Assembly: GCA_003584625.1 (NCBI GenBank)
Contig: AP017647.1
Span: 854,603 to 918,602 of the forward strand
Direction: 5' to 3'
Origin: Methanothermobacter sp. MT-2
GTDB lineage: Archaea > Methanobacteriota > Methanobacteria > Methanobacteriales > DSM-23052
Length of the DNA stretch: 64,000 nt
A program made the position numbers and the translations under genes. Numbering within the stretch: the stretch's first letter is position 1; every line of letters begins with the position of its first letter. This document shows, piece by piece, positions 39,477 through 53,062 of the stretch. The notes below the pieces were generated by a model. That model did no database searches. It was given only the letters and a program-made list of their open reading frames with translations, and was not told the DNA's origin.

Positions 39477-40697
39477 TTAGGGTCTGTATCTTAAAATCGC
39501 CCCTATACCACCAAAAGCCTTTAAAAGTTGTATTCCCTCCTCAGTCTCAGTTGATATTATCTCAACCTCAGAACCCACCATCTCAGCGATTTCCACAAGG
39601 TCATCAACAAGATCTCGAGAATCTAGCATCTTCATTTCATCATTACACTTAGGACAAGGCCTAGATTCATCACCCTTTACAGTTACATCCATTTTATATC
39701 CACAAGATGGACATTCATAGGTAGCTCTCCTTGCCTTAAGATCCTCTGATAATAAAAGCACCTCCACCGCACCCATTTGCAGATAATTTCTCACCTCATC
39801 TTCTCCATAAGCTGCAAGTCCATCCTCGTTTATGAGTTCACTGAGAAACCTCTGGACTAATTTCTTCTCCCTCATCACATCAATTTCCGTTAAAACATCC
39901 ATTGATTTGTCGATAACTTCCCTTATACCAAATTCGCCAGTATAAGATGTGTCAACAGTTGTTATAATCTTCTTCTTAACCTCATGATGAAGGTAATCGC
40001 CCTTGACGAAATCTTCCTTAGTATGACCAGGCCCTCCAATTATAACCCCTTTAAGATCAGGTATTGATAAAAAAGCCTCATTCATATGCTCCCCTATCCT
40101 TTTAAGGAATTCATGGGCTGCTAATTCTATCAGTCGATCGAATCTTCGCTGTGACTGGCCTCCTGCCTTGTGTTTTCCTGGAACGCCACTGGTAAGGGTT
40201 TTCAAGATTTCAATCCTCTTACCCTTTAAGAGTGCTAGTGTAGCCTCTTTACGGTCCAAAACAGCCAAACCATAAATTTCCTTCTCTTCCAGCATCTCTT
40301 TTAGGGGTTCGAGATAAAATTCAGAATTACAATGATATATATAAGTTTTTATAGGTTCTGGTGGCTCGAAGACATATGTTTCCATCTTTTCTGTGCCTGG
40401 TCCTCCCCTGGGTATCATACCAACGAACATTACCAGACCATTCTCTGGCGGACGGGGGAACAGTTTCAAACGTTGCATTATAACCTCTATAGCTGACTGA
40501 ACGTTTTTTCTAGTCTGTTTACTTTTAATATTAGCACTTTGGCTCAGCTCTTCCCTCATATGCTTAGCCACGTCACTTATCTGCCTATCAGGTGGTATGT
40601 ATACTGATACAAGCTCAGTACCTCTACCCTTCTTTCCTGCGAGTTCCTCTAAAGTCCTCCTAAATTCATAGAGTCTCTTTGATGATACTTTACCCAA
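39477..40697 (-). CDS. prf1: Peptide chain release factor aRF1
   Basis: 406 residues. Recognises all three stop codons. The NIKS motif (ANIKSKQTR) lies near residue 60, the GGQ motif is in [13 protein letters not shown] near 180, and domain 3 carries a zinc finger ([17 protein letters not shown]). I place the start at TTG 40697, which is preceded by GGAGTGAT 4 bp upstream and gives [12 protein letters not shown]; the longer ATG at 40733 lacks support. It is divergent from pyrH. Confidence 0.94.
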
Positions 40698-40780
40698 ATA
40701 GATCACTCCTTTCATGAGAAAAATTTCAGCCAAATGTCTAAACTTTATAATAGATTATAACATTACAAACTAATATAATC

Positions 40781-48842: not shown

Positions 48843-48995
48843 AAAATTTATTATCTTTTCCCTAATTTTCTCTATTAACTGAGGGGATATTTAAAGTTTA
48901 TAGCCTCACTAGAGGGTGATGGCCTATTCCTCTTTAGATTTATATATTAGTATATCATATAATTATAGATACTAATGGTTATTAAAGGTTTTAAA

Positions 48996-49424
48996 ATGAC
49001 ACTGGGAAGATTACAGCGTTTAACTGAAGAATTGGATGAAATCAGATATTACAGCGAACAGGGAGTTCCGATTTTAATAGAAGGGAAAAGAGACGAGGAA
49101 GCTCTTCAAGAACTTGGAATCAGAGGCGAATTCATAAAAGTTTCAGGGTCATCATCAAATTTATCCGAAATTGCAGATTCAGTCGCCAGATTATCATCAA
49201 TGGTGATAATTCTCACAGATTTTGATAGGAAGGGTAACCAGTTGGCAAAAAGACTCCAAATGGAGATAGAGAGCCTAGGCTGTTACCCAAATTTACAGAT
49301 ACGCAAAAGGATAATGGGGATGACAAGGAAATACATAAAAGACATACAAAGTCTTCCCAAGTACATACAAAGGTTACAGATGGAGATCTCTCCATACCCT
49401 TTTCAATACAACTCCATCTATTAG
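48996..49424 (+). CDS. Toprim-domain protein (UPF0292-like)
   Basis: 142 residues. Toprim motifs: [17 protein letters not shown] near residue 24 (catalytic glutamate) and [18 protein letters not shown] near 70 (DxD). Short stand-alone Toprim proteins resemble the RNase M5 catalytic core. ATG 48996 (AAAGG upstream) is preferred over ATG 48975, which may be too near the TATA box at about 48949-48962. dnaG follows 27 bp downstream. Confidence 0.78.
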
Positions 49425-49451: not shown

Positions 49452-50594
49452 ATGGGAAAAGAAGAAATAAGCACAACTAAATATCTTATTCACGCTCAAA
49501 TTAACGCTAATGGGATTGTTGAAAAACCGGATGTGGTAGGTGCAATATTCGGACAAACAGAAGGACTACTAAGTAATGATCTCGACCTTAGAGAACTGCA
49601 AAAAACCGGAAGAATAGGAAGAATCAAAGTCAACATAACATCAAGAGGCGGTAAATCAAAAGGGGAAATAATAATACCCTCAAGCCTAGACAGAGTCGAA
49701 ACAGCCATACTAGCAGCATCACTAGAAACCATAAACAGAGTAGGACCATGCGAAGCCTACATCCAAGTTACAAAGGTCGAAGACGTGAGGGCTGTGAAAA
49801 GAAAAAAAGTAGTTGAACGTGCAAAGGAAATCTACGCCACTATGATGGAAGAAGTGACACCAGAAAGTCTTAAAATGATCGAAGAAGTGAAAGAGGCTAT
49901 GAGAGTCCATGAAATAACAGAATACGGCGAGGAGAAACTGCCAGCAGGCCCCAATGTAGCCACATCCGATGCAATCCTAGTCGTGGAAGGAAGATCAGAC
50001 GTCCTAAACCTGCTAAAACACGGCATCAAAAATGCAATCGCAGTAGAAGGCGTGAACATACCAAAAACCGTGGCAGAACTCACCCATAAAAAAACAGCAA
50101 CGGCCTTCGTAGATGGTGACAGGGGCGGAGAACTCATCCTAAAAGAACTCCTACAAGTAGCAGACATAGACTATGTCACAAGAGCCCCAAAAGGAAAAGA
50201 AGTGGAAGAACTCGGAAAAGACGAGATAATGGTCGCCCTCAGAAACAAGGTGCCAGTAGAACAAATCTACCACGAACTAGGCATGCCAGCAAAGAGCAAA
50301 AAAGCAGAAGACAAAATGTTATTATTAAAAAACATCCTCACTGAACTAGAAGGTTCAGGTAACGCCGAAATCCTAGATGACGCGCTTAACATCCTAAAAG
50401 AAGTTAGAGTCGAAAACCTTTACGACGAACTAAAACATGTCAACAACCACCCCTATGCCATAGTATTTGATGGAGTGGTAACCCAACGCCTAGTTGACAT
50501 GTCACACGAAAAAGGGGTGAAATATCTAGTCGCCATCAGAAGCGGCGAAATCGTGAAAAAACCCCAAGACATCAAGATAATAACAAATAATTGA
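49452..50594 (+). CDS. dnaG: Archaeal DnaG primase/exosome subunit
   Basis: 380 residues. The archaeal N-terminal domain (EISTTKYLIHAQINANGIVEK to about 165) precedes a Toprim domain with ILVVEGRSDVLNLLKHG near 178 and AFVDGDRGGELILKEL near 220. The protein makes short primers in vitro and in archaea is a stable part of the RNA exosome. It is shorter than some relatives, which have a longer C-terminus. ATG 49452 follows GGGGGATTATC. Cotranscribed with the Toprim and AAA+ genes. Confidence 0.92.
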   Translation: MGKEEISTTKYLIHAQINANGIVEKPDVVGAIFGQTEGLLSNDLDLRELQKTGRIGRIKVNITSRGGKSKGEIIIPSSLDRVETAILAASLETINRVGPCEAYIQVTKVEDVRAVKRKKVVERAKEIYATMMEEVTPESLKMIEEVKEAMRVHEITEYGEEKLPAGPNVATSDAILVVEGRSDVLNLLKHGIKNAIAVEGVNIPKTVAELTHKKTATAFVDGDRGGELILKELLQVADIDYVTRAPKGKEVEELGKDEIMVALRNKVPVEQIYHELGMPAKSKKAEDKMLLLKNILTELEGSGNAEILDDALNILKEVRVENLYDELKHVNNHPYAIVFDGVVTQRLVDMSHEKGVKYLVAIRSGEIVKKPQDIKIITNN

Positions 50595-50604
50595 AGGATT
50601 TAAA

Positions 50605-52110
50605 ATGTATGTTGACATGCGAAAAGAAACCCTCAATGACATCGAAAGCACAAAAGATATAAAAATACCAGAGGACCCCCTCGAAAGAGTCATAGGCCAC
50701 GACAATATAATGCCAATGATTAAAATCGCCGCGAAACAGAAAAGGAATCTCTTACTAGTCGGCCCCCCGGGCATAGGTAAATCACTCCTTGCACAAGCAA
50801 TCTCATTCCATCTCCCCCCACCATCCGAAGAGATAATAGTCGTACACAACCCAGAACAACCCGAAAGGCCATTCGTAGAAGTTAAAAACAGAAAAGAGAT
50901 AGAAAACGAACTACTAGAAATGGAAATGGCCGAAGGAGAGCTAATAGACCCTCAAAGCGCGCCAGACGCGGTTGCGGAGAGACTAGGGTTCAAATGTGTG
51001 CACTGCGGTGAATACAGCAGCGCATACACCAGCATCTGCCCCAAATGTGGAGGCGAAAAATTCGCCCACATCAACGCCCGACGAAAACACCTTGGAGACC
51101 TGCTGGGAATGTTTGAGATGAGCTCAAACAACCTCAAAGTCCCCCAGAAAAGAGTTACAACAACAAGAATCATCAACGGCGTTGAAGAAGTAGTTATCTA
51201 CGAAAGAGTGGGTGGAGACGAAATAAAAGTCCTAGATCAGAGAGCATTAGAAAAAAGACGACAGATCGTGGAAGAAAAACCAAGAAACGTAATAGTACCC
51301 CTAGAACGTAAAACATTCATCCAAGCCACAGGAGCCAGCGAAACAGAACTTCTAGGAGATGTGAGACACGACCCCTACGGCGGACACCCAGACCTCGGAT
51401 CACAACCCTACGAAAGAGTAGTACCAGGAGCAATACATGAAGCACACGAAGGAGTACTATTCATAGACGAAATAGTCCACATAGCAAGCCTACAAAGATA
51501 CATCCTAAGTGCAATGCAAGACAAAACATTCCCAATCATAGGAAGAAACCCACAAAGCGCCGGCAGCTCAGTTAAAGTCGAAGACGTCCCCTGCGACTTC
51601 ATATTCATAGGAGCATGCAACATCATAGACCTACAATACATACTACCACCCCTCAGATCAAGGATACAAGGAGAAGGCTACGAGATACTAATGAACACAA
51701 CAATGCCAGACACCGAAGAAAACCAGGCCAAACTAGCACAATTCGTAGCCCAAGAAATAGAAATGGACGGTAAAATCCCACCAGCAAAAGTAGACGCGAT
51801 CAAACTCATAATAGAAGAAGCAAAAAAGCGTGCAAGACTCATAGATGACATGGAAGACTCATTAACATTAAGACTCAGAGACCTCGGTGGAGTGGTGAGA
51901 ATGGCCGGAGACCTCGCTGTAATGCAAGAAAGCGAATATATAACAGCTAAACACGTTGAAACCGCGATAAAAAAGGCCATACCAGTAGAAGAACAGATAA
52001 TAAAAAAATATAAAACCTATGAAAACGCGCTCCAAAAAGACCTCTCAAGCTCTCAACACATACGCAAATTCCAAGGCCACCATGAAAACATAGACAGAAG
52101 CTACATGTAA
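50605..52110 (+). CDS. LonB-related AAA+ ATPase lacking the protease domain, with zinc ribbon
   Basis: 501 residues. Walker A LVGPPGIGKSLLAQAI near residue 52, Walker B GVLFIDEIVHI near 285 and the arginine-finger segment LPPLRSRIQGEGYEI near 350 match archaeal LonB. Between Walker A and B, where LonB has its membrane helices, there is instead a four-cysteine zinc ribbon (CVHCGEYSSAYTSICPKCGGE, about 132-152 and shown here in parts: CVHCG and CPKCG). The chain ends at residue 501, before any Ser-Lys protease domain. A soluble remodelling ATPase is inferred. It lies 10 bp after dnaG and 43 bp before xerA. Confidence 0.82.
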   Translation: MYVDMRKETLNDIESTKDIKIPEDPLERVIGHDNIMPMIKIAAKQKRNLLLVGPPGIGKSLLAQAISFHLPPPSEEIIVVHNPEQPERPFVEVKNRKEIENELLEMEMAEGELIDPQSAPDAVAERLGFKCVHCGEYSSAYTSICPKCGGEKFAHINARRKHLGDLLGMFEMSSNNLKVPQKRVTTTRIINGVEEVVIYERVGGDEIKVLDQRALEKRRQIVEEKPRNVIVPLERKTFIQATGASETELLGDVRHDPYGGHPDLGSQPYERVVPGAIHEAHEGVLFIDEIVHIASLQRYILSAMQDKTFPIIGRNPQSAGSSVKVEDVPCDFIFIGACNIIDLQYILPPLRSRIQGEGYEILMNTTMPDTEENQAKLAQFVAQEIEMDGKIPPAKVDAIKLIIEEAKKRARLIDDMEDSLTLRLRDLGGVVRMAGDLAVMQESEYITAKHVETAIKKAIPVEEQIIKKYKTYENALQKDLSSSQHIRKFQGHHENIDRSYM

Positions 52111-52153: not shown

Positions 52154-53062
52154 ATGAAAACAGAAAGTAGTCGCCATAAAACTCAAGGTATATTAAAACA
52201 TTTCCCTGAGATGATGGAAGACTACCTAATCGAACTTGAAATCAGAAACTACTCCCTAAACACAATAAAAACTTATAAATCCATCCTAAATAATTTCCAC
52301 AAATTCCTAGAGGATGAGGAAAACTTAGATGACAACATTTCAAGATCATTCAAAAAATATATAAGGTACTTGAAAAGGGAGAAGAAGGTATCCCAAAATT
52401 ATATATACCTTGTAACCATCGTTATTAAAAAATTCTTCGAATTCCATAAAATGGACCACCTAAAAGATATTAAAACCCCAAAAAGGGCAAAATCACTCCC
52501 AAAATCATTGAACGAAGATGAAGTGAAAAAATTAATAGATGCTGTGCATGTCATAGGCAATTCAAAACAGCAAAAATTTACAAAAACACGAGACAAACTC
52601 ATACTCTCACTACTTTATTCCTCAGGATTAAGAGTCTCGGAGCTTGTATCCCTCAAAGTAAATGACATAGACCTTAAAGATAGGACAATACGCATAAGGG
52701 GTAAAGGTAACAAAGACCGCATAGTACTATTCGACCAAAAAACAAAAAAACTAATCAAAGACTACCTCAATGAGAGAATCCATGAAAGCGAATACTTATT
52801 CATAAACCGCTTCGGCAAACCACTAACAGCACGCTATGTCCAGATAACCATAAAAAATTATGCGAAAAAGGCAGGGATCAAGAAAAAAGTGACACCGCAC
52901 ATACTAAGACATTCATTCGCAACACACCTCCTAAAAAACGGTGTTGACATAAGAGCCATACAACAACTCCTCGGACACTCCAACTTGTCAACAACACAAA
53001 TCTATACAAGCGTAGACATGGTAACACTAAAAAACCTTTATGACAAGGCCAAACTCCTATAA
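52154..53062 (+). CDS. xerA: Tyrosine recombinase XerA
   Basis: 302 residues. SAM-like N-terminal domain ([20 protein letters not shown]) and a catalytic domain with the RHRHY set: [11 protein letters not shown] near residue 158, the lysine in [19 protein letters not shown] near 253, [15 protein letters not shown] with the nucleophilic tyrosine near 288. Resolves chromosome dimers at dif in archaea. No dif site could be identified by eye. ATG 52154 has no strong ribosome-binding site. Confidence 0.92.

Follow-up and report, generated by a model that had tools for sequence, protein, structure and literature searches.

The gene at positions 50605-52110 (+) of the window (the whole analysed stretch of 64,000 nucleotides), which lies between dnaG (49452-50594) and xerA (52154-53062), encodes a protein that, judged from its sequence, is a LonB-type AAA+ motor without a protease domain and without a membrane anchor. 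It belongs to an archaeal family that carries a putative zinc ribbon and is encoded next to dnaG in distant lineages. The gene, its parts and its neighbours are as follows.

48975..49424 (+), small Toprim protein (PRK04017 family), 5' of dnaG; NF003093 above cut-off
49452..50594 (+), dnaG, exosome-cap/primase-like protein, with a 10-bp gap to the ATPase gene; NF003108, 551.5 bits
50605..52110 (+), stop included, predicted LonB-type AAA+ ATPase without protease domain, 501 aa; open reading frame and profile matches
50761..50784 (+), Walker A, residues 53-60 (GPPGIGKS); G56, G58, K59 and S60 in 102/102 members
50881..51306 (+), insert, residues 93-234, at the site of the LonB membrane helices; alignments and hydropathy
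50995..51048 (+), putative zinc ribbon C131xxC134...C145xxC148; 102/102 members, 40/40 inserts, 59/59 members of further lineages
51337..51348 (+), family signature S245-E-T-E248 (LonB: HAGA); E248 in 56/56 family rows versus A in 12/12 LonB rows
51451..51471 (+), Walker B, residues 283-289 (GVLFIDE); D288 and E289 in 102/102
51619..51663 (+), sensor 1 N339 and arginines R351/R353; 102, 101 and 102 of 102, respectively
52012..52107 (+), C-terminal tail, residues 470-501, found where LonB has its protease domain and kept within phyla; alignment
52154..53062 (+), xerA, 3' neighbour of the ATPase gene; NF040815 above cut-off

Compared with the sister species (L006), the ATPase gene has 146 synonymous versus 24 non-synonymous codon differences; it is therefore under coding constraint and strong purifying selection. 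The ATPase motifs (Walker A, Walker B, sensor 1 and arginines) are complete in the sequence. The window also contains, about 10 kb from the ATPase gene, an ordinary aRF1 release factor gene at 39480-40754 (-) (TIGR03676, 630.9 bits).

A predicted LonB-type motor lacking protease domain and membrane anchor

Residues 13-92 and 236-470 of the ATPase align with the AAA+ part of archaeal LonB (PDB 3k1j, E 3.1e-82; we take 3k1j and 4zpx to be the Lon of Thermococcus onnurineus). Across 56 family and 12 LonB rows, 79 alignment positions are conserved in both, including pore-region and Walker/sensor residues, and both cores are interrupted by an insert that separates Walker A from Walker B. The LonB layout proposed in the sequence-only reading is thus well founded. 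With the NCBIfam LonB model TIGR00764 the ATPase scores 342.7 bits, below the curated cut-off of 516.6. The same rows define residues by which the family differs from LonB: HAGA is replaced by S245-E246-T247-E248, H by Y269, Q by R298, Q by R314 and S by N315. Many members from lineage f40 read SPVE or SHVE at positions 245-248, with E248 retained.

The sequence-only reading had also held that the chain ends before a protease domain, and had asked whether a full-length LonB is present elsewhere. A single match to Lon_C (PF05362), the Ser-Lys protease domain, was found in the whole genome (one contig, 1.52 Mb), at C1:388160-388705. It lies in a 632-aa frame (C1:386948-388705), which is the separate full LonB of this genome, with a membrane helix and a protease domain; its ATPase part is 51% identical to the window ATPase. 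Because this sole match belongs to the separate LonB, protease-like sequence is absent 3' of the ATPase gene, and no degenerate protease domain was found there with the PF05362 profile (whole genome, E 1e-3). Family members have a short tail instead, which is conserved inside each group and differs from group to group; their open frames are mostly 470-550 aa, some are longer, and one of the longer frames is due to upstream read-through.

The replacement of the membrane insertion by a zinc ribbon, likewise proposed beforehand, agrees with the hydropathy of the insert. In a 19-residue scan of residues 93-235, the peak value was 0.41, versus 2.3-2.8 in four LonBs, so no membrane helix is predicted in this part of the ATPase, whereas LonB has membrane helices.

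Among other AAA+ families, YifB and ChlI share a broad group with the ATPase, which scores 52.3 bits with the magnesium chelatase ChlI core model (PF01078, cut-off 20.3). It nevertheless stays below the cut-offs of Mg_chelatase_C (PF13335, 14.8 versus 26 bits) and of the whole-protein YifB model (TIGR00368, 41.2 versus 362.4 bits). MCM helicases belong to the same AAA+ superclade as the family ATPase, and weak matches, under the cut-off, were obtained for their P-loop (PF00493, 22.9 versus 23.3 bits) and lid (MCM_lid, 20.4 versus 27.4 bits). The MCM zinc ribbon sits in the N-terminal domain, whereas that of the family lies inside the AAA+ core.

A putative zinc ribbon in the insert

The pairs C131xxC134 and C145xxC148 fall in the stretch from Walker A to Walker B, at the site that membrane helices occupy in LonB. 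Their CxxC...CxxC pattern is of the ribbon type, and its invariant cysteines, conserved in 40/40 inserts across lineages, are putative zinc ligands. Generic ribbon models match many of these 40 inserts at E<=1, and for none of the models does the window insert score above cut-off. The origin-associated protein OapC (PF09845) was rejected as specific kin of the insert, as it scores 21.1 bits in the window insert versus a cut-off of 23 and reaches E<=1 in only 7/40 inserts. The AlphaFold model of the whole protein was poor (pLDDT 47.9). A model of the insert alone reached pLDDT 69.9; its best structural match had Z 3.3 and rmsd 3.0 over 59 aligned residues, and no Foldseek match to a known fold was obtained at E<=0.001. 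Bacterial RadA/Sms, whose ATPase is of the RecA type and is followed by a Lon-like C-terminal domain, is similar in that it joins a zinc ribbon to an ATPase with a nucleic-acid context (E 0.57-0.87 for the weak match to its ribbon), but its core and domain order are unlike those of the family ATPase.

Distribution and age of the family

Members were found in 19/151 genomes of Methanobacteria, the window's own phylum (rows at E below 1e-230, as the search also listed LonB). With an E limit of 1e-75, which excludes LonBs (scoring at about 1e-53 to 1e-67), the family was present in 115/294 Thermoplasmatota and 82/196 Micrarchaeota genomes. In a domain-wide sample of 345 relatives it occurred in 30 of the 194 archaeal genomes outside the window's phylum, some of which are, by matching coordinates, identical to the Thermoplasmatota or Micrarchaeota ones. 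A low-sensitivity scan that included bacteria returned archaeal loci only. No phage or viral-contig relative of the ATPase was found, and the plasmid matches are the true LonB of Natrinema; a mobile-element origin was rejected.

The four cysteines are invariant in 102 distinct members of the three groups, as are K59, D288, E289, N339, R353 and R425. Another 59 members, which come from other lineages, all retain the cysteines, the D288-E289 pair and R425; they also have Walker A, except for the L181 copy, which is cut by a contig end, and in L221 the position of the sensor-1 asparagine is irregular. In trees of the ATPase core (68 sequences and 53 sequences), the family was separated from LonB with 100% ultrafast bootstrap (UFBoot), which gives the separate clade that the sequence-only reading had proposed to look for. 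Mean identity to LonBs is 45-50%, versus about 60-64% between groups within the family. From these trees and identities, the split from LonB is judged to be old rather than a recent truncation. A recent truncation or decaying LonB copy might be suggested by the LonB-like sequence and the missing protease domain, but it is highly improbable: the tree and the conservation refute it, as the motifs are kept, purifying selection is strong and, among the outcomes named beforehand as damaging, neither a downstream protease domain nor clustering inside LonB was seen.

Linkage to dnaG and other neighbours

Loci were compared after removal of repeats and where at least 600 bp of upstream sequence was available (1 of 41 Micrarchaeota loci was left out). 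A dnaG gene on the same strand that ends within 600 bp upstream of the ATPase gene is present in 19/19 loci of Methanobacteria, 42/42 of Thermoplasmatota and 9/40 of Micrarchaeota. The loci of the latter two groups were not sampled at random; they are mostly top-scoring ones, together with picks for wider stretches. The other 31/40 Micrarchaeota loci have no dnaG inside 600 bp. In 20 loci of other lineages, dnaG is the next upstream gene in 11 and is separated from the ATPase gene by one small ORF in 3 (14/20); one of the remaining 6 starts at a contig edge. The pairing survives heavy rearrangement in the 9 Micrarchaeota loci and in lineages f12, f15, f40, f41, f50 and f114, and no neighbour other than dnaG was found to be common across lineages in the loci of several lineages compared. 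In contrast, xerA lies 3' of the ATPase gene in 18/19 Methanobacteria loci and in none of the other lineages compared. The placement between dnaG and xerA, offered earlier as functional context, is thus kept in its dnaG half only: the adjacency to dnaG is not local, and that to xerA is local to Methanobacteria and outside the conserved context.

A small Toprim gene precedes dnaG in 16/19 Methanobacteria and 4/40 Micrarchaeota loci. The Toprim-dnaG-ATPase trio also occurs in f50, and the Toprim protein has a weak RNase M5 match; it is possibly an RNA-processing partner.

DnaG was found in 140/151 Methanobacteria genomes versus the ATPase in 19/151. DnaG does not need the ATPase, because most Methanobacteria without the ATPase keep DnaG; given these counts, it is the ATPase that would depend on DnaG, if there is any dependence. 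A full-length DnaG match is seen in carriers and also in the non-carrier genera g2, g5, g7, g8, g11, g12 and g14, and since several non-carrier genera keep this full-length match, a simple correlation between DnaG and ATPase evolution was rejected. In the genera g6, g9, g10 and g13, which also lack the ATPase, DnaG of nearly all members matches that of the window no further than about residue 270-310, its C-terminal part being diverged or lengthened.

Lineage variants with Pelota, Gins51 or unlinked copies

In f40, the gene about 31 bp 3' of the ATPase gene encodes Pelota (TIGR00111, E 1.6e-84) in 33/35 genomes, and one of the two misses has only 110 bp downstream; dnaG is present in 31/35, the four misses all belonging to genus g160. 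These counts derive from 46 loci (36 with Pelota, 34 with dnaG), from which three repeats and eight f96/f102/f114 loci were removed to give the 35 f40 genomes. Past pelota, f40 loci (L174-L177, L225-L228) carry opposite-strand genes of about 371, 235 and 310 aa in constant order.

Two ATPase copies are present in three of four f41 genomes. The duplicate copy is followed by Gins51 in 4/4 loci (L178, L181, L183 and L184), identified by PF22090 in L183 and L178 and by likeness to a profile built from the four in L181 and L184. These Gins51-linked copies form a clade (UFBoot 99) with a shortened insert, and they may be a subfamily that belongs to the replisome. Neither dnaG nor pelota adjoins the f96/f102 copies (7 loci, L217-L223). 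A methyltransferase-cluster gene lies 3' in 7/7 of these loci, separated in L220 and L221 by one or two ORFs, and an XPB-like helicase or tRNA splicing endonuclease is encoded nearby. In f114 (1 locus), dnaG is split into two reading frames.

Proposed function and competing explanations

The reading that we favour, tentatively and at somewhat less than an even chance, is that of a non-proteolytic LonB-like remodelling ATPase that works with DnaG in RNA surveillance (exosome cap, stalled ribosomes). Because its ATPase motifs are complete and many of its core residues are those conserved in LonB, the protein may be read as a polypeptide-translocating ring that resembles LonB but has no protease chamber. 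In LonB structures, the membrane-helix side is the substrate-entry side. The ATPase would form a LonB-like hexamer, and six ribbons at the entry face, on the site of the LonB membrane helices, would recognise a partner. Given the dnaG linkage, this partner would be DnaG itself or its substrate, an RNA-protein complex marked by DnaG. ATP hydrolysis would then thread part of a polypeptide through the LonB-like pore; the product would be released remodelled, not cut.

The RNA-surveillance side is preferred because archaeal DnaG is an RNA-binding exosome subunit (PMC4227792), and because pelota lies 3' in one lineage and the Toprim gene, with its weak RNase M5 match, lies 5' of dnaG in others. Co-occurrence with the exosome was uninformative as a test of function, as Rrp41 is nearly universal: it was found in 144/151 Methanobacteria and 194/196 Micrarchaeota genomes, the majority of which lack the ATPase, and in the domain sample 12/194 genomes lack Rrp41, versus 0/30 carriers (P = 0.125, with lineages that are not independent). 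Against this reading stand the Gins51 neighbour of the f41 duplicate in 4/4 loci and the 31/40 Micrarchaeota loci unlinked to dnaG. The nucleic-acid or exosome-linked remodelling suggested at the outset therefore holds in part: the dnaG linkage and the f40 pelota speak for it, by inference, and Gins51 beside the duplicate points to replication too.

A motor for replication or repair, in which the ring, as a helicase or replisome remodeller, would act together with DnaG as primase and, in its duplicated form, with GINS, is possible but unlikely. It would account for the Gins51-linked clade of f41 and is in line with the weak MCM P-loop match; in addition, dnaG lies near the PolB3 and RPA genes in other archaea (Berthon 2008, PMC2643942). 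However, the conserved residues of the core follow LonB, the MCM score is under its cut-off, and no other replication gene was identified beside the main, dnaG-linked form. DnaG is moreover dispensable in Haloferax and regarded as unlikely to prime replication there (PMC7776575). We infer that RNA surveillance is the likelier of the two.

It is rather unlikely that the ATPase is a general or unrelated protein remodeller with its own clients and that its dnaG neighbourhood is merely an inherited operon. Most Micrarchaeota copies are indeed unlinked to dnaG, the f96/f102 copies lie beside methyltransferase and other genes, and constant gene order within a clade can be vertical inheritance, but the dnaG pairing outlasts rearrangement in lineages without any other common neighbour. 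We consider it improbable that the ATPase works with a protease in trans, unfolding clients for the LonB protease or another chamber in the manner of Clp ATPases. A LonB-type protein is also encoded in 19/19 Methanobacteria carriers and in 7/7 further-checked genomes (one being a Methanobacteria genome among the 19), but among the recurrent neighbours in the loci compared none was recognised as a protease gene, and the residues past 470 form a short tail that differs per phylum and corresponds to no known docking element.

The RNA-surveillance reading can be carried further, to a picture that is speculative and that we hold to be unlikely, in which DnaG, the ATPase and Pelota form one surveillance machine. 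Pelota would recognise the stalled ribosome, the ATPase ring would dismantle the complex by threading protein, and DnaG would pass the RNA to the exosome. Such a machine would correspond, in archaea, to the Dom34-Ski-exosome route of eukaryotes and would use a LonB-descended AAA+ motor, and the f41 duplicate would have been retooled for GINS at the replication fork.

Significance

An arCOG entry presumably exists for the ATPase family. A search of open-licence papers found no account of the ATPase or of its linkage to dnaG; the dnaG context survey of Berthon 2008 (PMC2643942), in the part available, names PolB3, RPA and PACE12 neighbours and not this ATPase.

Archaea may retain a bacterial-type DnaG as an exosome subunit, as a primase or in both roles. 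With a motor ATPase that is encoded alongside dnaG across deep archaeal lineages, a concrete partner is at hand for probing the role of DnaG. The annotation would change for the genes that are now sub-threshold 'LonB protease' in many of the sampled Thermoplasmatota and Micrarchaeota genomes. The family would also represent a LonB-type motor, with a putative zinc ribbon at its entry face, that became independent of proteolysis and of the membrane at an early stage of archaeal evolution.
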